Of a stretch of DNA of 53,092 bases, positions 2,253 through 24,001 are shown in pieces (the stretch's first letter is position 1; every line of letters begins with the position of its first letter). The stretch covers positions 1-53,092 of the forward strand of contig JAMPCH010000014.1 in the NCBI GenBank assembly GCA_023666265.1. Reading direction: 5' to 3'. The DNA is from Roseburia sp. GTDB lineage: Bacteria; Bacillota; Clostridia; Oscillospirales; Ruminococcaceae. The notes beneath the pieces are model-generated. The model searched no databases, was not told the DNA's origin, and saw only the letters and a program-made list of their open reading frames with translations. Position numbers and translations under genes: made by a program.

Positions 2253-3419
2253 TCACGCCGCCTTGCTACGTTCGATACAATCCGCCATACGACTCTTGTA
2301 TGAAGGGTCATCGATCCTGAACGGCAGGACGATAAAAGTATACTCCTTTCCGCTGATGATCATAGGTGACAGCGCTCCGCTCCCGGAGAAAAGCGGTTTG
2401 TCGGTGTCGATCGTTTCCAGCACGTTCGCGAGAAGCTTGGGATTAAAAGCGATATGAAGATCGGGTCTCAACGTATTCTCCTTCGTCGCCACAAAGTCGA
2501 GCGACTCGTTCTCCGACACCTTAAAGTAGGCGTATACGCCCTCGCCGTTACTGAGTAAAACGACGGGGATCGGGGACTTTACTTCCTTCATTAGATCACG
2601 GTCGTAACGCATGACCGACAGCATCTCTTCCCGATCGACAGAAAAGTCGAAGCCGATGTTTATACTTAAAGTCTTATCGACATCGAGATACTTTCCTGTG
2701 ACCTGTCGGGCGATGTAGGTAAAACTCTTACCCTCGACCCGGATAAACTTTTGATCCCCGGAAATCGTGACCGCTTCCGACGATTTTTTATTCATGACCT
2801 TTCGCAGTACGGGAACGCACATATTATGTAACAGAACATTCTCCGCGTCGGGATTTACATTCAGTCCTTCCATCGATCTGATCCCGACCTGAACGCCGTC
2901 AAGCGCCTCAACGCGTTTCTTCTTCACATTGAAATGAAAGGCGTGTGTGGTTTCATTAACGTGATGTTCGCTTGTGAACTTCTTTAACATGGAAACGGTT
3001 TCCCAAAACCACGCTTCCGAAGCGGAGAAGATCTCCGTTGCCGTTTCCTCCATCTCGGGAGGGGAGACCGCATCCTTCTCCCACGCGGAGATCGTGATAT
3101 TCTTCTGTCCAACGCGAACGTTGGCTCGGCATTGATCTCCTTCTCCGACCTGTTCTATCGTGACCTCTCCTTGCATTTTGGCAATAAGCTTTAGATCATC
3201 CACGCTGACCCCGATCTCACCGACAGAGGCGTCGGAAGCTTCGCCTCGGATCTCCGCGTACTGATCGAAGTCAGACCCCCACGCCGTGACCACCCCGTTC
3301 TCGTCCACGCGGAAGTACAGCCGACGCAGAGCCGGCACAGAGCTTTTCTTCGGCACGACGGTCAATCCTTTTTCGATCATTGCCTTTAAATCTTTTGCGT
3401 TCATTGTAAATTTTAACAT
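2253..3419 (-). CDS. dnaN: DNA polymerase III beta subunit (sliding clamp)
   Basis: 388-aa processivity clamp that encircles DNA and tethers the replicative polymerase. The start MLKFTMNAKDLKAMIEKGLT follows an AGGAGG site; the longer frame to 3548 is upstream noise. The N-terminus matches the clamp pattern: early helix, the LRRLYFRVDENG strand, and SVDDLKLIAKMQGE at the domain 1 hairpin. Length is slightly above the usual 360-380 aa. Its C-terminus (YTFIVLPFRID) resembles the clamp's closing strand (VLPMRL), but is followed by a basic tail (SYKSRMADCIERSKAA). Phage-encoded clamps are known; this one implies a dedicated replisome. Confidence 0.88.
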   Translation of the reverse strand: MLKFTMNAKDLKAMIEKGLTVVPKKSSVPALRRLYFRVDENGVVTAWGSDFDQYAEIRGEASDASVGEIGVSVDDLKLIAKMQGEVTIEQVGEGDQCRANVRVGQKNITISAWEKDAVSPPEMEETATEIFSASEAWFWETVSMLKKFTSEHHVNETTHAFHFNVKKKRVEALDGVQVGIRSMEGLNVNPDAENVLLHNMCVPVLRKVMNKKSSEAVTISGDQKFIRVEGKSFTYIARQVTGKYLDVDKTLSINIGFDFSVDREEMLSVMRYDRDLMKEVKSPIPVVLLSNGEGVYAYFKVSENESLDFVATKENTLRPDLHIAFNPKLLANVLETIDTDKPLFSGSGALSPMIISGKEYTFIVLPFRIDDPSYKSRMADCIERSKAA

Positions 3420-3457
3420 TGTTTTGTCCTCCTGTTGTTTGGTTATTGTAGGTTGTG

Positions 3458-3829
3458 TTATACGAAGATTTCTTCTAAGGTTTCCCGGTTGGGGATATGA
3501 ACTTCCCGAACGATCTCCACGCCGTCGTCGAGATAGTCGCCGTTCCAAAAATCGTCTATATCGGAATACTCTTCTCCGATCCGCATAAAGTGATAGGAAT
3601 ATTCGGGACTGTTCACAAAATGGCGGTCAAGAAACCGCATGATCTTATCGATCTCGCCTACTCCGCTATAGTCGTTCGACCACTTCCACCATTCCCATTG
3701 AAGGATATAGGTGTCTTGATCGGTCTTATAGATCGTTGTCGGCTTGACATCATACTTTTGAATCGCCGCGAGGAATAGGCTGTACGCCTTTTCTCCGCAA
3801 GCGATCGTAACGTCGCTTCTGTAACTCAT
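3458..3829 (-). CDS. Conserved phage-type hypothetical protein (123 aa)
   Basis: The start at MSYRSDVTIACGEKAYSLFL follows AAAGGAGG. Compact alpha/beta pattern with many aromatic residues (ILQWEWWKWSND) and an acidic middle (IDDFWNGDYLDD). No catalytic signature I can name. Lies 38 bases upstream of the clamp start in the same direction, so it is probably co-transcribed with it. Confidence 0.7.
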   Translation of the reverse strand: MSYRSDVTIACGEKAYSLFLAAIQKYDVKPTTIYKTDQDTYILQWEWWKWSNDYSGVGEIDKIMRFLDRHFVNSPEYSYHFMRIGEEYSDIDDFWNGDYLDDGVEIVREVHIPNRETLEEIFV

Positions 3830-4709: not shown

Positions 4710-5432
4710 TCACACCCACGCGGGCTCTATCGGTGAATCCGGAAGGCTGAAAAGCCAGTCGATCACCTCTTGCGGAATCTCTTCCTTCTTCCAGCTAGTG
4801 CCGTATCGATACCCACACATCGGGCAGGGCTTACAGAGGATACCGATCGGATCTTCATCGTAGCGAATCCATCCTCTTCGCTCTTTCGATGTCGCTCCCT
4901 TATCTCCGGCATACAAAGGACGCACGGGGCGGTAGTCAGGCAAATCCAGCTCCTTTCCGAACGATTTAACGGTATAGGGAAGTGAGGCATACATAGATTG
5001 TTCTTCGGTCGGGGTAAAGCTTTTGCCGTTTTTCAAAGCCGTAAGCGCGGCTTTCTCTGCCTCTTTCTGCTTTCGTCCGGCTTCATCGGTTAGGCAATAA
5101 CGATAAATCGTAATTGCCTCTTGCGCCTCGTCCTCCCAGCCGAGCGCTCTCTGATGTTCACAAGACGGGCGCAAATCGTTGAGATGCCAACGCTCCCATA
5201 TCTCCGAGAACTGTTTGAGCATTTCCTTTGTCCAACCTACCGCCGGCGTTCCTGCCGCTATCTCTTCGCGACATTGACCGCAAGATCCCGTACAGTTGCC
5301 GTTTGACTTAGGACCTATCACACCCGAAATACTAAGCCGTTCATCTTCGTATATGATTTTAGCGAAGGCTCTCGCCATTCGCCCGTTATATACCTCGCAC
5401 ATCGCGGGCTGTACGATCTTGACTCTTTCCAT
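4710..5432 (-). CDS. Conserved Cys-rich hypothetical protein (240 aa)
   Basis: Starts MERVKIVQPAMCEVYNGRMA after a GGAAGGAA site. Two cysteine pairs flank a helical middle: NCTGSCGQC near residue 48 and CKPCPMCG near residue 200. The internal motif LNDLRPSCEHQRALGW looks conserved-family in character. The arrangement suggests one or two small zinc-binding ribbons, but no enzymatic residues are evident. The annotation rests on pattern only. Confidence 0.65.
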   Translation of the reverse strand: MERVKIVQPAMCEVYNGRMARAFAKIIYEDERLSISGVIGPKSNGNCTGSCGQCREEIAAGTPAVGWTKEMLKQFSEIWERWHLNDLRPSCEHQRALGWEDEAQEAITIYRYCLTDEAGRKQKEAEKAALTALKNGKSFTPTEEQSMYASLPYTVKSFGKELDLPDYRPVRPLYAGDKGATSKERRGWIRYDEDPIGILCKPCPMCGYRYGTSWKKEEIPQEVIDWLFSLPDSPIEPAWV

Positions 5433-5677
5433 TTGTTCCTTCCTTTCTTTGCCTCTTCAATGATCCGATCGATATTTCGATCGAACAGCTCGATCATGTC
5501 TTGACGTTTGAGATCTAGCATATGGATTAACTCGCTACGAACCGAATGTCGATCGATCCGCCGACAGTTACATTGCACCGTTGTGATCAGCTCGCGGAAT
5601 GTGATGTTGTCGAGCAGGTTATCTTCTTCGTACAGATCTTCGCCGAGTATCCGTTGTCTTTTATTTAATTTGCTCAC
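5318..5677 (-). CDS. Hypothetical protein (119 aa)
   Basis: Start assigned to GTG at 5677 (GTGA overlap with the upstream stop, preceded by GGAAAGAAGG), reading MSKLNKRQRILGEDLYEEDN. Helical protein with VQCNCRRIDRHSVRSELIHM in the middle. Its last 115 bases overlap the start of the 240-aa gene in another frame, unusually long for this genome; the tail after EEAKKGRNKWKESR may be non-native. Confidence 0.55.
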   Translation of the reverse strand: MSKLNKRQRILGEDLYEEDNLLDNITFRELITTVQCNCRRIDRHSVRSELIHMLDLKRQDMIELFDRNIDRIIEEAKKGRNKWKESRSYSPRCARYITGEWREPSLKSYTKMNGLVFRV

Positions 5678-6408
5678 GCAAACACCTTCTTTCCAAAAAG
5701 AGCGAGCTGAACGATACAATCGGCGGCGCGTCCATCGATTTGCATGGTGTCGATTCTCCCGCCGCTCAAACAGAGAATACCGTCTTCGTTATCCGAGATC
5801 CATAAACGAACCCCGTTCAGCAGTTTCCCAAGCGTCAATTCCCATTTCTCGTTGCTTTCGGCATCGTGTAAGATCAGACTACCGCCTCGGGCGATCTGGT
5901 CGCTCGCATATTCTCCGAGATATTCGCCGACGACCTCGGCTTTATAACACCAGTAGGAGATATAGTCGAGCGCCGTCGACATGATGTCGTCTATTTCTTC
6001 CGTTGACAGCGAAACTGTGACGGTCAACGTCACAGCGAAATCGGTCGGCTCAGACAAGACGGAAGGAAGCCCGTCACACCGATAACATCCGCACGGCGTT
6101 TCCTCCGAGATAGCCAACACGGGAAGTTCCTTACATCGATTATCTCCGAAGTATGCGCCGGCTAGCTTATGCCCGCTCGCCTCATCCAAGTGACCGGAGT
6201 AGGCGACCTCGGCACATAGTCGATCCGCGAGCGTTCCGTTTCGAGCCAACTCGATCAGATCGGGGATCGTGAAGTATACACCCGTCCACTCGTCAAGTGT
6301 CAAGTTCTCTCCGGGTTCGCCGGAATCACAGTCGTAAAGATTTCCGCTGAAATGCACGAGCTTTTCCCCGTGATCTCCTTTTTCGACTTGATAAAAATAC
6401 CAGTCCAT
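5674..6408 (-). CDS. Conserved hypothetical protein (244 aa)
   Basis: Starts MDWYFYQVEKGDHGEKLVHF after AAAGGAG/AAGGAT. Shows a short Cys pair (CGCYRCDG, ~110), then a conserved-looking core ALDYISYWCYKAEVVGEYLG followed by LLNGVRLWISDNEDG. No enzyme signature. It lies directly downstream of noncoding element A (6455-6766) in the same orientation, so the element could be part of its leader. Confidence 0.65.
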   Translation of the reverse strand: MDWYFYQVEKGDHGEKLVHFSGNLYDCDSGEPGENLTLDEWTGVYFTIPDLIELARNGTLADRLCAEVAYSGHLDEASGHKLAGAYFGDNRCKELPVLAISEETPCGCYRCDGLPSVLSEPTDFAVTLTVTVSLSTEEIDDIMSTALDYISYWCYKAEVVGEYLGEYASDQIARGGSLILHDAESNEKWELTLGKLLNGVRLWISDNEDGILCLSGGRIDTMQIDGRAADCIVQLALFGKKVFA

Positions 6409-6454
6409 TTTGATCCTTTACTCCTTTCTTAATAGCATTGAAAATTCTTGTTGA

Positions 6455-6766
6455 TTTTTATTACTCTAAAATATAATGAGACTCCGGATTTAGCGGAGCT
6501 GGGGTGTTTCTGGCAGCCGTTAAAATCTGTTTATAATTGGATTTAGCAGTAACCAGTTGTCTTTGGATGACCCTGTGTTGTGGCTTACTTATGGGGTTTC
6601 GATTGTTCCTTTACCACCATTTGCCACCCAAGCCGATAACATTTTTACACGCGGCGGGCACAGAGGCGTCTTCGGTTCCTATCCATCCTATCCCCGTCGT
6701 CCTATCAAGGTTCTTCTTCCGGTAATACCTAAAAGATCGGCATAGCCGAATGTGCAGTAATAAAAA
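6455..6766 (-). ncRNA. Noncoding element A: candidate structured RNA, sister of element B
   Basis: A 312-bp gene-free interval closed by an 11-bp inverted repeat (TTTTTATTACT at 6455-6465, AGTAATAAAAA at 6756-6766). The block 6695-6766 matches 8855-8926 in element B at about 65 of 72 positions, and both also share the TTTTATTACTCTAAAA end. The middle differs from B. Read on the minus strand, the conserved block comes first and contains a perfect hairpin TCGGC-TAT-GCCGA. Orientation is inferred from the operon. Alternatives: a short mobile element with terminal repeats, or a leader of the gene at 6408. Confidence 0.6.
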
Positions 6767-6779
6767 CTTAGAGATCACA

Positions 6780-7088
6780 TTAGGTCAAAAGGCAAGACGG
6801 AGATTGCGCCCAGTCCGCCATTATGACCTTACACGGATAGATCCCTAGGATCGCATATCCTTCCTTACAGTACGGCTGATCCTTCAACACGTAAGTGATC
6901 CGACACAAGATGCTCTGTCCCGTAAGACGCGGTTCGCGGGCATCCCCGTCAACCTCTTCCGCGCATTCGTTGAGGGCGAGATAATCGCCGACTTTATAAT
7001 CCCGGTCGTTTTCCCGTACCTCAAAGGTCTTTTCTCCGGACACTAGGTCGTTAAAATATCCCGGAAAGATCTTTAATTCATGAATCAT
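6780..7088 (-). CDS. ASCH/DUF3850-type RNA-binding domain protein
   Basis: 102 aa. Start MIHELKIFPGYFNDLVSGEK follows GGAGGAG. The pattern HELKI-x-P-x-YF-x(3)-V-x-G-x-K-TFEVRENDRDYKVGDYLAL is the signature of the small ASCH-like/DUF3850 family, a PUA-like beta barrel thought to bind RNA or modified nucleotides. It sits third in the RT gene set and ends 14 bases before element A, so an RNA-binding role with the RT or its RNA is an attractive inference. Confidence 0.75.
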   Translation of the reverse strand: MIHELKIFPGYFNDLVSGEKTFEVRENDRDYKVGDYLALNECAEEVDGDAREPRLTGQSILCRITYVLKDQPYCKEGYAILGIYPCKVIMADWAQSPSCLLT

Positions 7089-7102
7089 TTCAGCTCCTCC
7101 TT

Positions 7103-7432
7103 TCACTCTTTTTCCGCAATCTCGTCGAGGAGATCGTGTGTCTGTCGATCGGCGACCTCCGCTCGCTTAGCGTCGTTAAATCGATCGAGCGATCCGACAA
7201 GGTAGCCGGTGATCCGCCTGATCCTCTCGAATTGGACTTGTTCATAGCGGAACGAAAGATTTACATATTCCCCGTCCACCTCGACGACGACCTCTAAAAG
7301 CTTTTGTCTTGGGCTTTTATCCCGCCCTCTTTTGATATATGCTTCCTCCTCCTGTCGGGAAATCGCACCGCCGATGACCGTGACCCTCGGTCTCGTCCCG
7401 CTCATCGATGTGTCTTTGTTTGTGGGATACAT
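7103..7432 (-). CDS. Small RT-associated protein (109 aa)
   Basis: Chosen start ATG at 7432 with AAAGGAG 7 bases upstream; an internal ATG at 7405 forms an ATGA overlap with the RT stop but lacks a ribosome site. Basic N-terminus (SGTRPRVTVIGGAISRQEEE), then a beta-rich stretch (LLEVVVEVDGEYVNLSFRYE) and a helical tail. It overlaps the RT gene by 31 bases, implying translational coupling. No recognised domain. Confidence 0.65.
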   Translation of the reverse strand: MYPTNKDTSMSGTRPRVTVIGGAISRQEEEAYIKRGRDKSPRQKLLEVVVEVDGEYVNLSFRYEQVQFERIRRITGYLVGSLDRFNDAKRAEVADRQTHDLLDEIAEKE

Positions 7433-8580
7433 ACGCGTTCTCCTTTCAATTGGCGCTTAATCGTCTCCGTGATATTCACGCCGAATTTTGTGCTGTACTG
7501 TCGGATCAGATAGTTAATATAGTCTCTCTCGATCGAAAGGTAGTACGAGATCTTTCCTTGTAAATGATATACGTCGTCCAGCGACCAAAACGTTCCACCG
7601 ATCGTGTCGGTCGCAAAGTGCGTCAGCATTGATTCAAAGACCTTCTTGTTGCGGTGTCCGATCGTGATGTTATTATCTTTATTCAGGCATACTCCGAGAA
7701 TAAAGTTCTTCCCCTTACGCGAACAATAATGGGTCTTTTCCGCTTTGATCCGAAACGGCATTTGAAAATTCCCAAGGATCGAGTTGATCTTCTGCTCTAC
7801 TTCGCGGAAGTCAAAGCTTTGGCGACACGACACCACAATATCGTCAGCGTATCGTGTATAGATGTAGTGGGGCGTATGCGTTCCGCAATAGTTCGTCATC
7901 TCGTGGTCAAAGGGGATCATCATAAGGTTCGTTAAGAATGGGCTGATCGGCGTTCCCTGAGGCAGTCCTCCGTCTAGGAACGCTAATTCCAACGCTTCCT
8001 TCAAAGCTGTTTTTCCGCGCTCGGAAGCACACACCAAATTGAGAGGGTAGATCATCGACGCCATCCTCATCACAGTCTCCATCGTTGTCGACCCGAAAAA
8101 ATTTGAGAAATCAAACTTGGCAAACCATTCGGACTCGTTGTTTTGATGGCATCGCACCGCATCCACCGGACAGCGCTCCTTCACATAAGCATAAGCGCTT
8201 GTGTGGTGGAACTTTGTCCCGATCTTCATATCAAAAAGCTGTTTTAACTCGTCAAGTGCTTTTTTTAATTCATCGTTCGGCGCGTCGATCTTACGAAGCC
8301 CTCCCGATTTTTTGGGGATACGAAACGTATGATAGAGCGAATGGCGCTCCGACGAATATAAAGGATCATAGAATACGCGATACTGTTCCAACGCAAGGAT
8401 GAAATCCTCCGCGTTGAACGTATCGGGAGTTTTTGAATCGGGAACGACACCGTCTCGCCTCTTTCGGGTGACGGTCAGATTGGGCGATTGCACCGCCTGC
8501 TCCGGCAATTCGCCTGTCAGTATCTGTAAAAAAGTCGGTGTGACAAAGCGAGGTGTTGAAGGGTTTACGTAATAGATCAT
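7402..8580 (-). CDS. Reverse transcriptase, retron/group II-like, class unassigned
   Basis: 392 aa. Fingers/palm motifs in order: IPKKSGGLRKIDAP (88-101, motif 1), AKFDFSNFF (154-162, catalytic Asp157), GLPQGTPISPFLTNL (205-219), YTRYADDIVVS (241-251, catalytic Asp246/247), KTHYCSRKGKNFILG (282-296). All catalytic residues are intact. The retron hallmarks NAxxH and VTG are not evident; an ILG replaces VTG, closer to group II intron-type RTs. It lacks the DGR-type SQ motif and has no maturase or endonuclease domain. Start ATG with AAAGGA. The noncoding element B immediately upstream is the natural candidate template or primer RNA. Confidence 0.9.
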   Translation of the reverse strand: MIYYVNPSTPRFVTPTFLQILTGELPEQAVQSPNLTVTRKRRDGVVPDSKTPDTFNAEDFILALEQYRVFYDPLYSSERHSLYHTFRIPKKSGGLRKIDAPNDELKKALDELKQLFDMKIGTKFHHTSAYAYVKERCPVDAVRCHQNNESEWFAKFDFSNFFGSTTMETVMRMASMIYPLNLVCASERGKTALKEALELAFLDGGLPQGTPISPFLTNLMMIPFDHEMTNYCGTHTPHYIYTRYADDIVVSCRQSFDFREVEQKINSILGNFQMPFRIKAEKTHYCSRKGKNFILGVCLNKDNNITIGHRNKKVFESMLTHFATDTIGGTFWSLDDVYHLQGKISYYLSIERDYINYLIRQYSTKFGVNITETIKRQLKGERVCIPQTKTHR

Positions 8581-8603
8581 AGTTTTTTTCCTTTCGTTTT
8601 ATC

Positions 8604-8926
8604 ATTTTATTACTCTAAAAAAAGATGTCAGGATGCAGAATCTGAGTTCAAGTTTTTCCTAAGGACTCTTGGACCCCGAATGTTGAATATACAACAGTCA
8701 TTTTTTTTACATAGTGCTAGGACGGATGGCAGTACTATGAAAGGCAGAGAGAGAATATAACTTGCTCGTTGAAGTTTCATATCGTTTTCAAGTTTCGTGA
8801 AGCTTTCATTGCTATCAACCCTCTCGTGAGTATGCTGGGTTGACCATCAGCCTCCGTCGTCCTATCAAGAATGTTCTTCCGATGATACCTGAAAGATCGG
8901 CATAGCCGAATGTGCAGTAATAAAAT
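8604..8926 (-). ncRNA. Noncoding element B upstream of the RT: candidate RT-associated RNA
   Basis: Gene-free 323 bp closed by an 11-bp perfect inverted repeat (ATTTTATTACT 8604-8614, AGTAATAAAAT 8916-8926). It ends 23 bases before the RT start codon, matching the retron plan of an RNA flanked by complementary ends directly before its RT. The block 8855-8926 is about 90% identical to 6695-6766 of element A. Internal helices visible on the minus strand: TCGGC-TAT-GCCGA near the 5' end, AAGAA-CA-TTCTT, and TCAACCC pairing GGGTTGA. No ORF or consensus promoter of its own is evident. Confidence 0.65.
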
Positions 8927-8939
8927 TTGATGTAAGTAT

Positions 8940-9614
8940 TTAATCCGACTCTACGCGAAAACGGAACGCATCGATCAAAACAAACTTCTTAATAGGTTCT
9001 CCTTTTAAGAAGTTGACAAAGTTCGACGCGCCGTAACCACAAATGATCCGAACGGTCGGGCATACGCACAGCGCGACACCGCAAGCCGACATCGGTGTTT
9101 CCGCGTCAGCCTCCTCGTCCGTGAAATCCATAGACTTTAAGAAGATCTCACGATCCTTTTGAGAACGCCAGTCCGCTCCGTAATGCTGGGCTTTGGTCAA
9201 CCCGGTTCGAAAATCGAACATCGCCTTAACGTCTACGGAACTCATTAAGCGCTCCGTGATCGATCGACGGGTCGAGATCTTATCGACGCATAAGAAGACA
9301 TAGCCGCCCAAATTCTGATCTGTGTAACCTCCGGGACGGAGGCGGATATGACCCTCCGCCTCGGGATTGATCCGAACGATCATATCGCGCACCGCATCGA
9401 CCTTTTCACGTCCGATATCGGAAACGCTGAACATCTGATTCGCGAGATTGTGTCCCTCGACCTTATCGAAATCGTACAGGTTAAAATTCACAAATCCGAA
9501 ACGCGCCAAATTTTCCGCAAGGGTCGACCCGACAGAGCCGCACCCGATAATGTGGATCCGGTCATTCCCAATCGAGGTAGGGTCGATAAAGTCCCAGCTC
9601 TTCCTTAAATCCAT
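8940..9614 (-). CDS. ThiF/E1-like adenylyltransferase
   Basis: 224 aa. Rossmann nucleotide-binding loop GCGSVGS (24-30), followed by LYDFDKVEGHNLANQ (47-60), which matches the D-x-D ... N-x(3)-Q ATP/Mg site of E1/ThiF enzymes, and the conserved lysine in DIGREKVDAV. A later cysteine cluster (SACGVALCVCP) could hold the thioester or zinc cysteines. E1 enzymes adenylate the C-terminus of a ubiquitin-like protein; the small beta-grasp protein at 11536-11763 is the obvious partner. The N-terminus overlaps the JAMM gene by 53 bases; an AAAGGAG site supports this start. Confidence 0.85.
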   Translation of the reverse strand: MDLRKSWDFIDPTSIGNDRIHIIGCGSVGSTLAENLARFGFVNFNLYDFDKVEGHNLANQMFSVSDIGREKVDAVRDMIVRINPEAEGHIRLRPGGYTDQNLGGYVFLCVDKISTRRSITERLMSSVDVKAMFDFRTGLTKAQHYGADWRSQKDREIFLKSMDFTDEEADAETPMSACGVALCVCPTVRIICGYGASNFVNFLKGEPIKKFVLIDAFRFRVESD

Positions 9615-10173
9615 ACGTGGTATGCTCCTTTCTTTTTACGACTTGTCTTGCCTTTACGAGATAGTCCTGTAACGGACAGTCTTCAATTTGAAGGATACAG
9701 TCGTTTTTTTCGTAGACGATCATATTTACGCCGTCGTACAGTTCCATATAAAAATTCAGCGACTTATTCCAGATCATGAAAAGGTAATATTTCCGATTCG
9801 GATTTGAGACGCTTGTCAGCTGTTCCAGCCGATCGTTCCACTCCGACCGATCGATACTGCTCGGCGTTACGCCCATATTCACATGAGAATGAGCGTGCAT
9901 CCGAACGCCGCAGAACACATCGTTCGGGAGTTCTTCCCGCCACGCAGTATAAGCTTCTTCGTCCGTGTCGACTGTAGCGCCTGTGACTTCTTGTGGAAAA
10001 ACCAAAATGTCGGTCACGCGAAACAAGTCCCCTTCTCTTTGGATCACGCCATGCCACGCGATTTCCGTGGAAAAGGTCGCGAGTAGCGCCGTCATTTTTA
10101 TCCAAGCCTCCTGTGTAAAAATGATCCGAGGCTTGATCACGATTCGCTCTGTACGATCTCGTTCGCGCTCCAT
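9562..10173 (-). CDS. JAMM/JAB-family deubiquitinase-like peptidase
   Basis: 203 aa. The complete zinc peptidase signature is present: Glu37 (STEIAWHG), then H95-S-H97, seven residues, and SSID (Ser105, Asp108), i.e. E ... HxH-x7-S-x2-D. Such enzymes cleave isopeptide or C-terminal tails of ubiquitin-like proteins. Start ATG follows AAGGAGGG and overlaps the upstream gene by 37 bases. In PRTRC-like cassettes the JAB protein pairs with ThiF, as here. Confidence 0.88.
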   Translation of the reverse strand: MERERDRTERIVIKPRIIFTQEAWIKMTALLATFSTEIAWHGVIQREGDLFRVTDILVFPQEVTGATVDTDEEAYTAWREELPNDVFCGVRMHAHSHVNMGVTPSSIDRSEWNDRLEQLTSVSNPNRKYYLFMIWNKSLNFYMELYDGVNMIVYEKNDCILQIEDCPLQDYLVKARQVVKRKEHTTYGFKEELGLYRPYLDWE

Positions 10174-11450
10174 AATACGCCCTCCTTATCTTCAAAGATT
10201 TTTTGATCCTTATTTTGAAGGATCTCCCGATTGAGTTCCTGCATCACAGTTACATCGGAAAAAGTCAGCCCTCCCGTTACCGCGACCAGCTCGGCGATGT
10301 ACCCCTTCCAATCACTATTTGTCAGTTTCTCGGAGAGCCGCGCCGTTCGTCCCGTTCCGAAGCAATCGTACTTCGTAATATGAGGGTTCGCGATCGCGTG
10401 ATCCGCTAGGTAGACCGTCATTCCTTTACCGTCACGCGTCGGCTGGTTATTGTCCTTAATATTAAAGCCTTGCTTTATCCGAAGGAAGTATTTCTTATCT
10501 AAGAAAACCGTTTGATACAGCTTCCGAAGAAAGTCCCCTTGAGGTTCGTCCGAGTCCGAGAAGAGTTCGCTATTCGGCGCCGTGATATACGTCTCGGCTA
10601 CATCCTCCTCATAGTTAGTCGCGAGCGTTGCACAGGTGATGTGTAAATAATCGCCTTGTAACTCCAACTGAACACCCATCGAATCGGCAAATTTGATCAA
10701 TTCCGTCATATCGAGCGACGCCGATGAGGTCTCGTATTGTTTTCTCAAAGCGTCTACCTCCTGTTTTCTTTTCGCAAGACGGTTCCCGTAACCATAGAGC
10801 TCTTGTACAGCGTTCTCGTATTCGTCTTCGGCATTTTTCAACAAGATTTTGCCCGTATCAAGTCTACGTAGGATATCTGCTTGCAAACGATCTTTGAGGT
10901 TCTTTTTTAGAAGCTCCTGCCATTCGCGGTGATGCCTATCTCGTGTTGTCGAAACAAATGGGGTATCGTTGCCTTTTCCCAAAGCTTCCAGCACTTTTAG
11001 TTCCTCCGCCGTCAACGGCGTTTTATTTTTAAAGATATCCGGGAGCAGAGACGGGATTACCGAGGCGACGAACATCCATTGGGGATAGGTCGCAGCCACC
11101 AAATCAAAGGCGACCACCACCTCGTCTGTATCTTCCGCGTGTTTTTTTCCAATTGCCAAATCCAAATGGCACTGTTTATCAGCCAAAGATTGGATCGCGG
11201 TAAAGATCGGATCTTGCGTCCATTCTCCCGCATTCACACATTGTTTCGCATATGTTATAGGATCGTACTGAGACGCAAAACGCACCTTCGGCTGCTCGAA
11301 TAGGCTATTATTCGAAGGTGTACGCTCGTATTGCGACGAGAGCTCCGGTCGACCTTCCGACAAATAATGGAGAACGTTTGACACTACATAGTTTTCGTTC
11401 AAACTAAAACTCGTGTCTCGGAATGGGAATAAATTTTCCCATATTCTCAC
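10137..11450 (-). CDS. Large cassette protein (437 aa) with possible C-terminal E2-like motif
   Basis: The start is GTG at 11450, six bases after AGGAGGTG. N-terminal half: mixed domain with VVVAFDLVAATYPQWMFVAS; middle (roughly 180-260): charged helical region (KNLKDRLQADILRRLD, LAKRKQEVDALRKQYE). C-terminal part: strand-rich, with ANPHITKYDCFGTGR around residue 355-368. That string resembles the HPH ... CLG active-site segment of E2/RWD-like folds in bacterial ubiquitin-like operons, making Cys363 a candidate thioester cysteine. This is a motif-level inference; the protein could equally be a divergent PRTRC protein B. Confidence 0.6.
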   Translation of the reverse strand: MRIWENLFPFRDTSFSLNENYVVSNVLHYLSEGRPELSSQYERTPSNNSLFEQPKVRFASQYDPITYAKQCVNAGEWTQDPIFTAIQSLADKQCHLDLAIGKKHAEDTDEVVVAFDLVAATYPQWMFVASVIPSLLPDIFKNKTPLTAEELKVLEALGKGNDTPFVSTTRDRHHREWQELLKKNLKDRLQADILRRLDTGKILLKNAEDEYENAVQELYGYGNRLAKRKQEVDALRKQYETSSASLDMTELIKFADSMGVQLELQGDYLHITCATLATNYEEDVAETYITAPNSELFSDSDEPQGDFLRKLYQTVFLDKKYFLRIKQGFNIKDNNQPTRDGKGMTVYLADHAIANPHITKYDCFGTGRTARLSEKLTNSDWKGYIAELVAVTGGLTFSDVTVMQELNREILQNKDQKIFEDKEGVLWSANEIVQSES

Positions 11451-11491
11451 AATGATCACCTCCTTATGGCGCGATGAAAATTTTTATGATT

Positions 11492-11535: not shown

Positions 11536-11763
11536 TTATGCACAATTATTCTTACTTACTTGGATCACCTTAAATTCTTCCGCCGCTTCGTCGATCTCCG
11601 CGAATGAAGTGTCGAGATCGCGGTAAGTGACCGCGTTGACCAAGTATGATCTCGTCGGATCAAAGCCGTTCTCGGCGAGGACATCGCTGACCTTTTGATC
11701 CGAGCTAACGATCACATCCTTACGCTCCGCGTCGTTACTTAAAGAGACTTTAATTTGATTCAT
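11536..11763 (-). CDS. Ubiquitin-like beta-grasp protein (75 aa)
   Basis: Sequence pattern fits a beta-grasp: strand QIKVSLS, strand KDVIVSS, helix KVSDVLAENGFD, strands YLVNAVTYRDL, and a final KVIQVS. The size equals the small Ubl (protein C-like) of PRTRC cassettes. The C-terminus ends KNNCA, with no Gly-Gly, so any E1 reaction would use an unusual tail. Start ATG follows AAAGGAAGG. The downstream E1, JAMM and large-protein genes make it the probable substrate of this module. Confidence 0.72.
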   Translation of the reverse strand: MNQIKVSLSNDAERKDVIVSSDQKVSDVLAENGFDPTRSYLVNAVTYRDLDTSFAEIDEAAEEFKVIQVSKNNCA

Positions 11764-11834: not shown

Positions 11835-12221
11835 TTACTCGATCATCTCCAAGAACGCCGCCTCTTCCTCCTCGATCTCGGGGATCACCGCCATGATCTG
11901 TTCCTCGATCTGTTTCAGAAGCGTCGTCGGTTTCAAGAGCGTCGCCGTTAGCGCGGTGTTGACTTCTTCCTCGTTCCCTCCGAAACCGTTATAGACCATG
12001 GTAGCGCATAGCTTTCCGTCCATTCCCGGAACGAGTGTCGCGGCAAAAGGTTTGAGCGTTCCCGTGGGGATGCTGTCGGATACGGCGAGTTTGAAATATT
12101 CGTTTCCGTCATCGTCCTTTAAGGTAAGCGCCTCGGGTCGACTTCGCAGGACCTTGTCGTGCTGATCCTCCGTTAAGTCGGTTAAGATGTTTACGGTGTT
12201 TCCGCATTTGACAATTCTCAT
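11835..12221 (-). CDS. Ubl-cassette accessory protein (128 aa)
   Basis: The start MRIVKCGNTVNILTDLTEDQ follows AAAGGAGG. Beta-rich N-terminal half, then PFAATLVPGMDGKLCATMVY, NGFGGNEEEVNTALTATLLK and a very acidic helix (PEIEEEEAAFLEMIE). Position and size are reminiscent of the protein E slot of PRTRC cassettes, but I cannot demonstrate homology. Confidence 0.6.
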   Translation of the reverse strand: MRIVKCGNTVNILTDLTEDQHDKVLRSRPEALTLKDDDGNEYFKLAVSDSIPTGTLKPFAATLVPGMDGKLCATMVYNGFGGNEEEVNTALTATLLKPTTLLKQIEEQIMAVIPEIEEEEAAFLEMIE

Positions 12222-12305
12222 ATGATTGTCCTCCTTTGTAATAATATTTTGTCCCATATGGGATGGTAGCGGCTGATCGGGTATTTCTGCGCCGCCAACA
12301 GAAGA

Positions 12306-13017: not shown

Positions 13018-13092
13018 TGGTTGGACTGGCGGGGATTGAACCCACGAATGACGGAGTCAAAGTCCGTTGCCTTACCGCTTGGCTACAGTCCA
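13018..13092 (-). tRNA. tRNA-Gln (anticodon UUG)
   Basis: Complete cloverleaf on the minus strand: acceptor TGGACTG/CAGTCCA, anticodon stem ACGGA/TCCGT with loop CTTTGAC (anticodon TTG), T-loop GGGTTCAATCCCC context, discriminator A and encoded CCA (13018-13020). Phage tRNA-Gln(UUG) reads CAA/CAG. It is not an amber suppressor as encoded, though UUG tRNAs can weakly misread UAG. Confidence 0.92.
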
Positions 13093-23927: not shown

Positions 23928-24001
23928 GGCGGGGTAGTGTAATGGTAGCACATCAGACTCATTCCCTGAATATGGCGGTTCAAGTCCGTCCCTCGCAACC
24001 A
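23928..24001 (+). tRNA. tRNA with CAU anticodon (Met or Ile2)
   Basis: D-arm GTGT/GCAC, anticodon loop CTCATTC (CAT at 23960-23962), T-arm GGCGG-TTCAAGT-CCGTC, discriminator A and encoded CCA. The acceptor has a G-A at the first pair, the anticodon stem ends in an A-C mismatch, and base 37 is U instead of the usual purine. Unusual but foldable. The initiator/elongator/lysidine type cannot be told by eye. Confidence 0.75.

Follow-up and report, generated by a model that had tools for sequence, protein, structure and literature searches.

How can one reverse transcriptase (RT) be flanked by two noncoding elements with common ends and different interiors, when known retrons, to our knowledge, pair one RT with one RNA? 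The question is raised by a contig of Roseburia sp. (JAMPCH010000014.1, assembly GCA_023666265.1), analysed here over its whole length of 53,092 nucleotides (nt) and referred to below as the window. The answer proposed is that the two elements, A and B, probably belong to an RNA family on which a single phage RT acts in trans and from which it would produce retron-style cDNA from each of them; the sequence comparisons make it most likely that one RT makes several different multicopy single-stranded DNAs (msDNAs). The RT and the parts of the two elements, all on the minus strand, are as follows.

7402-8580, minus strand: retron-like RT of 392 amino acids (aa), with LPQGTPIS and YTRYADD, ILG in place of VTG and AVRCH in place of NAxxH
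8605-8925, minus strand: element B, noncoding RNA of 321 nt just upstream of the RT, with a terminal stem and a 72-nt block
8916-8925, minus strand: a1 arm of B, TTTTATTACT, forming 10/10 pairs with 8605-8614
8915, minus strand: candidate priming G of B, directly 3' of a1, in an aligned family column that is nearly always G
8897-8909, minus strand: hairpin H1 of B (TCGGC TAT GCCGA), by direct reading; helix 1 covaries in the family
8876-8895, minus strand: hairpin H2 of B, helix 2 of the family; the differences between A and B keep the pairs
8615-8853, minus strand: variable interior of B, candidate msd-like template, without similarity to A
8605-8614, minus strand: a2 arm of B, AGTAATAAAA, preceded by AG as in most family members
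6456-6765, minus strand: element A, second noncoding RNA, 310 nt, downstream of the RT gene set
6756-6765, minus strand: a1 arm of A, forming 10/10 pairs with 6456-6465
6755, minus strand: candidate priming G of A, on the same basis as in B
6737-6749, minus strand: hairpin H1 of A, identical to that of B
6716-6735, minus strand: hairpin H2 of A, by direct reading
6466-6693, minus strand: variable interior of A, unrelated to that of B
6456-6465, minus strand: a2 arm of A, pairing with its a1

That two related noncoding elements bracket the RT, as a preliminary description of this DNA had claimed, is borne out by direct reading and by a repeat search: on the plus strand both start with TTTTATTACT and end with AGTAATAAAA, each is closed by a 10-bp terminal stem, and the window holds exactly two of them. 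The common 72-bp block, common inverted repeat and differing interiors of that description are equally confirmed, the block (6694-6765 and 8854-8925) being 92% identical between A and B and the short 3' end (6456-6478 and 8605-8627) 87% identical; similarity in blastn is confined to positions 1-72, and a MAFFT alignment of A and B gave no run of similarity across the interiors. A and B share their sense strand, the minus strand, with the RT, which places the 72-nt block at the 5' end of each RNA; within it, the H2 hairpins of A and B differ at two stem positions, both pair-preserving (C-G to U-G and G-U to G-C, by eye). Two details need amending: B does lie close to the RT start, at a distance of 24 nt instead of the 23 bases reported, and the intervals called gene-free lack a plausible gene, which is how the term must be read because open reading frames of 62 aa exist on the plus strand inside element A (6537-6725 and 6557-6745). 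The elements would be missed by whole-element folding alone, because the z-scores are only -1.68 (B) and -0.65 (A); an Rfam scan of the window returned two tRNAs only and left 6400-8950 empty even at E 1. The 72-nt block occurs twice in the 2.81-Mb own assembly and, across 99 genomes (own included), in the own genome only, and an exact 21-mer gave no match in viral contigs.

The RT belongs with those of retrons: its best profile match is PADLOC RT_II-A (E 2.4e-54), its best solved relative is the RT of retron Ec83, and among NCBIfam models the St85 RT scores 194.9 bits (below its cut-off of 235) versus 55.6 for Drt2 and 44.4 for Drt3a. The profile matches start about 75 aa into the protein, which thus carries an N-terminal extension. 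Used singly as a query, the protein found no relatives in viral or genome contigs; a profile built from three RTs did find them (the best 80 of 370 viral loci and, among 80 of 277 genome-contig loci, 15 close ones, most of these titled as metagenome-assembled genomes of Clostridia-type bacteria), and four further close loci came from genomes of the class. Altogether, RTs of a single clade occur in about 90 distinct loci, with viral contigs making up 80 of the 102 clade sources. When 21 clade RTs were placed in one tree with 14 from retrons and one of group II, the clade stood on its own branch beside the retron RTs (support 95/88), the root being uncertain because the outgroup branch is long. 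Among 394 genomes of the order, a relative with 43% identity is found in one (G398), all other matches having E 2e-20 or weaker, and another (38.6%) is present in the phage record MT835544.1 from human faeces; both loci have the gene order of the window and show two elements by eye, to which the covariance model described below adds a third in G398.

The noncoding elements of these loci constitute a family defined by its 5' domain. Aligned in MAFFT, 28 5' ends consist of a1 (NNNCTGTAAT), a G, hairpin 1, hairpin 2 (CTTCTYGCTGTYAGCRGAAG) and then TAACAACTTGA; a covariance model of this domain (R1: stem, near-invariant G and two hairpins), run over 94 clade sources (1.15 Mb, eight near-identical loci of the 102 being left out), returned 185 matches at E<=1, and none in 65 control loci whose RTs are more distant (0.76 Mb; in the eight of these that were scanned the best score was to retron RTs, the others being RT relatives at similar distance). 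A covariance search, as proposed in the preliminary description, recovered the family in loci with a clade RT. Of the matches, 28 are the model's own sequences or identical copies, including both window elements and one of the three in G398; for counting, 165 were kept, 17 with E above 0.19 and three at E 0.10-0.14 being dropped. The compensatory changes, the absence of which would have spoken against an RNA, are abundant in hairpins and arms: in the hairpins 81.7% of cells are paired versus 62.1% after shuffling, and the covariation score is 0.623 versus 0.253 (at most 0.264 when slid), values that persist without the window (82.5% versus 62.5%; 0.635 versus 0.259, 0/500; slid at most 0.280), helix 1 being weaker than helix 2 (68.4% versus 92.8% of cells paired in non-window sequences). 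The column after a1 is G in 26/26 non-window sequences and in 142/161 matches. Folded whole, the elements are somewhat more stable than their shuffles (mean z -3.1, n=37), and 5' domains, in an alignment fitted to the model, are more alike within a locus (identity 0.641) than between loci (0.477).

The model also performs outside its own material. In 20 contigs found through their ThiF gene, 22 matches at E<=0.1 occur in 12, all downstream of ThiF and on the same strand (two of these contigs, L219 and L220, resemble each other). The likeness of A and B exceeds chance, the same kind of 5' domain being present in 69 other loci, and the window is a divergent member of the family: the 40-bit scores that R1 gives its two elements are so by construction, because they are among R1's own sequences, and a model built without the window (R2) nevertheless ranks A first and B second over both window strands, in register with a1 and the G.

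The terminal arms vary among the copies within one phage, each complementing its own partner; in locus L046, for example, the arm pairs are TCTATGCAAT/ATTGCATAGA and GATGTACAAT/ATTGTACAT, the window being an exception in that A and B have the same arms. With one search procedure throughout (in which the a1 register of the window elements is off, giving 16 and 16.5, their 10-bp stem coming from direct reading), a1/a2 scores of at least 20 are reached by 107/163 elements with their own a1, as against 187/3260 with the a1 of another locus and 41/302 with that of another element of the same locus. When a2 is located by AG and the inner 5 nt only, it is unique in 94/163 elements (control 52/1459), and, moving outwards, the three positions that follow are paired in 85, 82 and 78 of the 94, versus 56, 32 and 30 expected. 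AG stands right before the 14-nt a2 window in 86/122 elements, and the 124 elements with paired ends have a median length of 311.5 nt.

As to copy number, the 165 kept matches fall in 71 sources, with one copy in 16, two in 28, three in 19, four in seven and eight in one (L070), that is, at least two copies in 55/71. Over 70 loci, 75 elements precede the RT and 88 follow it, always on its strand, and copies flank it on both sides in 49/70; the interval between ThiF and RT contains a match in 57/81 loci, and tandem arrays exist, for instance in L115 (at 7142, 7452 and 7743) and in L070. The interiors, by contrast with the 5' domain, are unrelated: in 249 of the 254 similar element pairs the likeness is confined to the first 124 nt (in 246, to the first 100), and of the five pairs similar over their full length four are between near-identical loci and one is within L099. 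Between the loci L033 and L034 of two related phages, the interior of the third element is only 66.9% identical, versus 99.2% (upstream) and 95.2% for its flanks and 95.0% for its 5' domain. A host or phage origin of the window interiors was considered and rejected, with no second copy in the own assembly (no other match below E 1 for 8628-8853 of B), element B unmatched in phage records and short matches at the shuffled level.

How such elements might be used can be outlined from retrons, the RNA ends of which have 8-30 complementary bases according to PMC6868368; both window elements have 10 bp, the family arms pair too, and a near-invariant G at the a1 stem with msr-like hairpins 3' of it characterises the family. 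The ends of each RNA would pair through a1 and a2, leaving an unpaired G right after a1, and the two hairpins would form an msr-like docking domain for the RT, which would start cDNA synthesis at the 2'-OH of the G, as in retrons, and copy the interior from the a2 side, leaving a branched RNA-DNA molecule (msDNA), possibly with the assistance of an RNase H from host or phage. Since conservation is limited to the 5' domain and the ends, several templates (one to eight, mostly two or three) with different cDNA parts could coexist in one phage. Binding of the RNAs by the RT, priming from the G and use of all copies by one RT are what we infer from these features; in substance, the retron geometry and the alternative raised at the outset, of one RT for several RNAs or of RNAs built in modular fashion, in a possibly new system, find support in the family, its arms and its copies.

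Several observations weigh against this proposal. As the preliminary description stated, the usual retron motifs are missing, although by profile the RT is retron-like: NAxxH in region X is replaced by AVRCH in the window (consensus AVKRH over 40 aligned RTs, the H mostly kept) and VTG at region Y by ILG (consensus NLG over the same RTs), whereas PMC6868368 gives each motif in 14/16 validated retrons. The G after a1 stands outside a TAGC context. No match was kept for counting in 23/94 clade sources, 8/20 of the out-of-sample loci gave none, and the R2 scores of the window elements are weak (15.4 and 11.3 bits, E 0.27 and 1.9, with third place at 11.1); the nearest 5' domain is in the own locus for 55/119 elements only. 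The interiors are mostly not unusual in stability (median z -0.76, n=37; A +0.8, B +0.5) and thus lack the long msd stem of retrons, with exceptions such as that of the L115 element at 7743, which folds very stably (z -11), unlike most of the family. Moreover, L099 has two copies identical over 354 nt on either side of the RT (5238-5591 and 6988-7341), a real duplication or an assembly effect, and fast change affects one of the three interiors of L033/L034 because the other two, at 95.6% and 97.3% identity, are not fast-changing.

Some of these same features would suit a different use of the RNAs, namely as templates copied in the manner of the defence RTs DRT2 and DRT9 (circular copying, protein priming, concatemers), without an msDNA primed from a 2'-OH. 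Structured noncoding RNA adjoining the RT is found in DRT systems as well, and both the missing NAxxH and VTG motifs and the mostly unstable interiors would fit; the RT, however, is far nearer to retron RTs than to Drt2 or Drt3a by the bit scores given above, the G at the a1 stem is near-invariant, and the interiors are not clearly kept as open frames (41/115 open, versus a mean of 33.2 with dinucleotide shuffles, sd 4.6, highest 42; a cruder shuffle had given 20.4). We regard such copying as unlikely. A DRT2-like coding template in particular was rejected, with no clear sign of an encoded reading frame in the interiors.

It is distinctly improbable that the elements, instead of being RT templates, serve the phage in regulation, replication or packaging, whether as RNAs or as DNA sites. 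The interiors, which have no shared structure, would be compatible with such a role; yet the elements track the clade RT, since R1 run over the 394 genomes (with stricter filters) matched only G000 and G398, the two genomes whose RT match far exceeds all others, plus weakly G009 (E 0.006), and none of the 65 control loci. The 67 matches in 20 virus records (possibly fragments) are all on the strand of the RT and no more than about 8 kb away from it. The wide occurrence without an RT that would have undone the initial description was not seen in the 394 genomes.

Terminal inverted repeats, several copies per genome and the two identical copies in L099 would also be expected of small DNA transposons, akin to miniature inverted-repeat transposable elements, parked near the RT. 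A single set of terminal repeats common to the copies is, however, absent from the family (the two window elements do share arms), and one transposase is unlikely because the arms differ between copies of one phage, each matching its own partner; with interiors otherwise unrelated, strand and place fixed and inner hairpins covarying, this origin is very improbable. Lastly, a diversity-generating retroelement (DGR), in which the element would be the template repeat for a variable gene and for which a phage RT beside a variable noncoding repeat might speak, has next to no probability and is already contradicted for the window, where neither interior has a second own-genome copy (best other E 0.08 and 1.0), exact matches to other parts of the window are no longer than in shuffled sequence, and the best matches of the RT are retron RTs, with no DGR model among the matches listed; besides, 19/52 substitutions between L033 and L034 do not involve A.

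The RNA family and the retron-like RT are tightly linked to a conserved operon. The window contig is phage-like (contig C5 of its genome; an integrase family was found, a large terminase family only weakly), and on the minus strand the order is a 140-aa, a 75-aa and a 440-aa protein, the JAB-like and ThiF/E1-like proteins, element B, the RT, a 109-aa protein, a DUF3850/ASCH protein and element A. The genes preceding element B are the following.

8940-9614, minus strand: ThiF/E1-like protein (Pfam ThiF, 2e-22), co-occurring with the clade RT
9562-10173, minus strand: JAB/JAMM-like protein (PADLOC JAB, E 0.002, weak; no Pfam hit), a conserved neighbour
10137-11459, minus strand: P440, conserved across loci, with no convincing family
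11536-11763, minus strand: 75-aa protein, no family hit
11835-12257, minus strand: E140, the 140-aa protein, kept across loci

Among 91 de-duplicated clade loci, some of them cut by contig ends, ThiF is present in 80, JAB in 76, P440 in 74 and the E140 group in 71. The reverse search with a ThiF profile (best 80 of 155 viral loci) shows that the E1-like gene and the RT go together, because 77 of the 78 new loci carry an RT relative, with its reading frame starting 0.6-6.4 kb after the ThiF start, and YTRYADD is present in 69 of the 77; these RT calls rest on position and on YTRYADD, the profile score at ThiF loci not separating the clade (from 387) from other RTs (up to 391). The 78th locus is cut just after ThiF, and the same record has a clade RT at its other end; the two loci concerned, L072 and L283, come from one IMG/VR record, probably a circularly permuted genome cut inside the operon.

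The JAB/JAMM-like protein carries HxHx7Sx2D, read by eye, which we take to be the JAB/JAMM motif. P440 and its relatives have in common a C-terminal PNPHIxxxxCLGxY, which in our view recalls the active-site region of E2-like enzymes, an identity that Pfam and PDB profiles did not confirm; the 75-aa protein might, as a guess from its size and place, be ubiquitin-like. Family scans gave neither of these two proteins a match to an E2 or ubiquitin-like family, and no known retron effector was recognised among the window neighbours scanned with PADLOC and Pfam.

A gene for RNase HI is found in 10/101 clade loci (two being the same locus) versus 2/97 others (one being part of the same G398 locus), which hints modestly at RNA-DNA hybrids; that of L070 matches Pfam RNase_H at 6e-44. 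RNase HI genes adjoin the RT, after or before it, in L070 (7648-8115), L047 (7531-7995), L084 (7385-7834), L067 (4911-5444) and L079 (5167-5598). A single-stranded DNA-binding protein gene (SSB, by Pfam) lies downstream of the RT in L049 (12216-12617), its group being present in 15/91 loci. In the window, the DUF3850/ASCH-domain protein (6780-7106, minus strand) sits between the RT and element A, the phage encodes a DNA polymerase processivity factor (PHROG 947; 2253-3548, minus strand), and the two tRNA genes are at 13021-13092 (minus strand) and 23928-23998 (plus strand), the latter directly preceding the integrase gene and possibly marking an attachment site.

The role of the system can only be surmised: it may be a phage-versus-host or phage-versus-phage device, with msDNAs as decoys or sensors and the E1/JAB-like genes on the protein side, and fast-changing interiors would fit an arms race. 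Tentatively, and with rather less than even confidence, it could represent a new class of phage system, in which a retron-like RT and a diversifying array of templates with a constant docking domain yield a repertoire of msDNAs, renewable "baits" or "sensors", together with an obligate E1/JAB modification operon. If the proposal is true, this would be a natural multiplex system for making single-stranded DNA, its RNAs combining a fixed handle with free cargo; it would be the natural parallel of retron engineering and a new phage-encoded part in phage-host conflict, beside ubiquitin-type genes. One could then test what information the RT takes from the msr-like domain by itself and which forces vary the interiors. 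In the literature consulted, in which subscription journals and preprints are few, no paper on a multi-RNA retron or on an RT in a ThiF/JAB phage operon was found.

Compared with known systems, the locus has in common with DGRs a phage RT with variable sequence, but no pair of template and variable repeats was found in the own genome or the window. E1/ThiF-like and JAB-like genes with a small protein are the components of the ubiquitin-like BIL (bacterial ISG15-like) operons, of those of type II CBASS (cyclic-oligonucleotide-based antiphage signalling systems) and of the PRTRC cassette; here, similarly, ThiF is clear, the JAB match is weak and a small protein is present, while the PRTRC_ThiF model scores 29.5 bits against a cut-off of 144.75, no E2 is recognised, and an RT and RNAs accompany the genes. 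DRT2 and DRT9 likewise combine an RT with an adjacent structured noncoding RNA, the differences being the weak similarity of the RT to Drt2 and the lack of a clear encoded reading frame. With retrons, of which types II-A and I-A are the nearest by RT (St85, Ec83, Ec78), the likeness extends from RT homology to a noncoding RNA that closely precedes the RT and has complementary ends, a G at the end of the a1 stem and 5' msr-like hairpins followed by a template-like part. Nevertheless, we class the system as retron-like and stop short of calling it a retron, since four retron features were looked for and are absent: NAxxH, VTG, a stable msd stem and the layout of one RNA per RT (two in the window). 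In their place are an RT with an N-terminal extension and both motifs replaced, several RNAs with unrelated interiors per RT in most loci, and, instead of a recognised effector, an E1/JAB-like operon, in loci that lie mostly on viral contigs.

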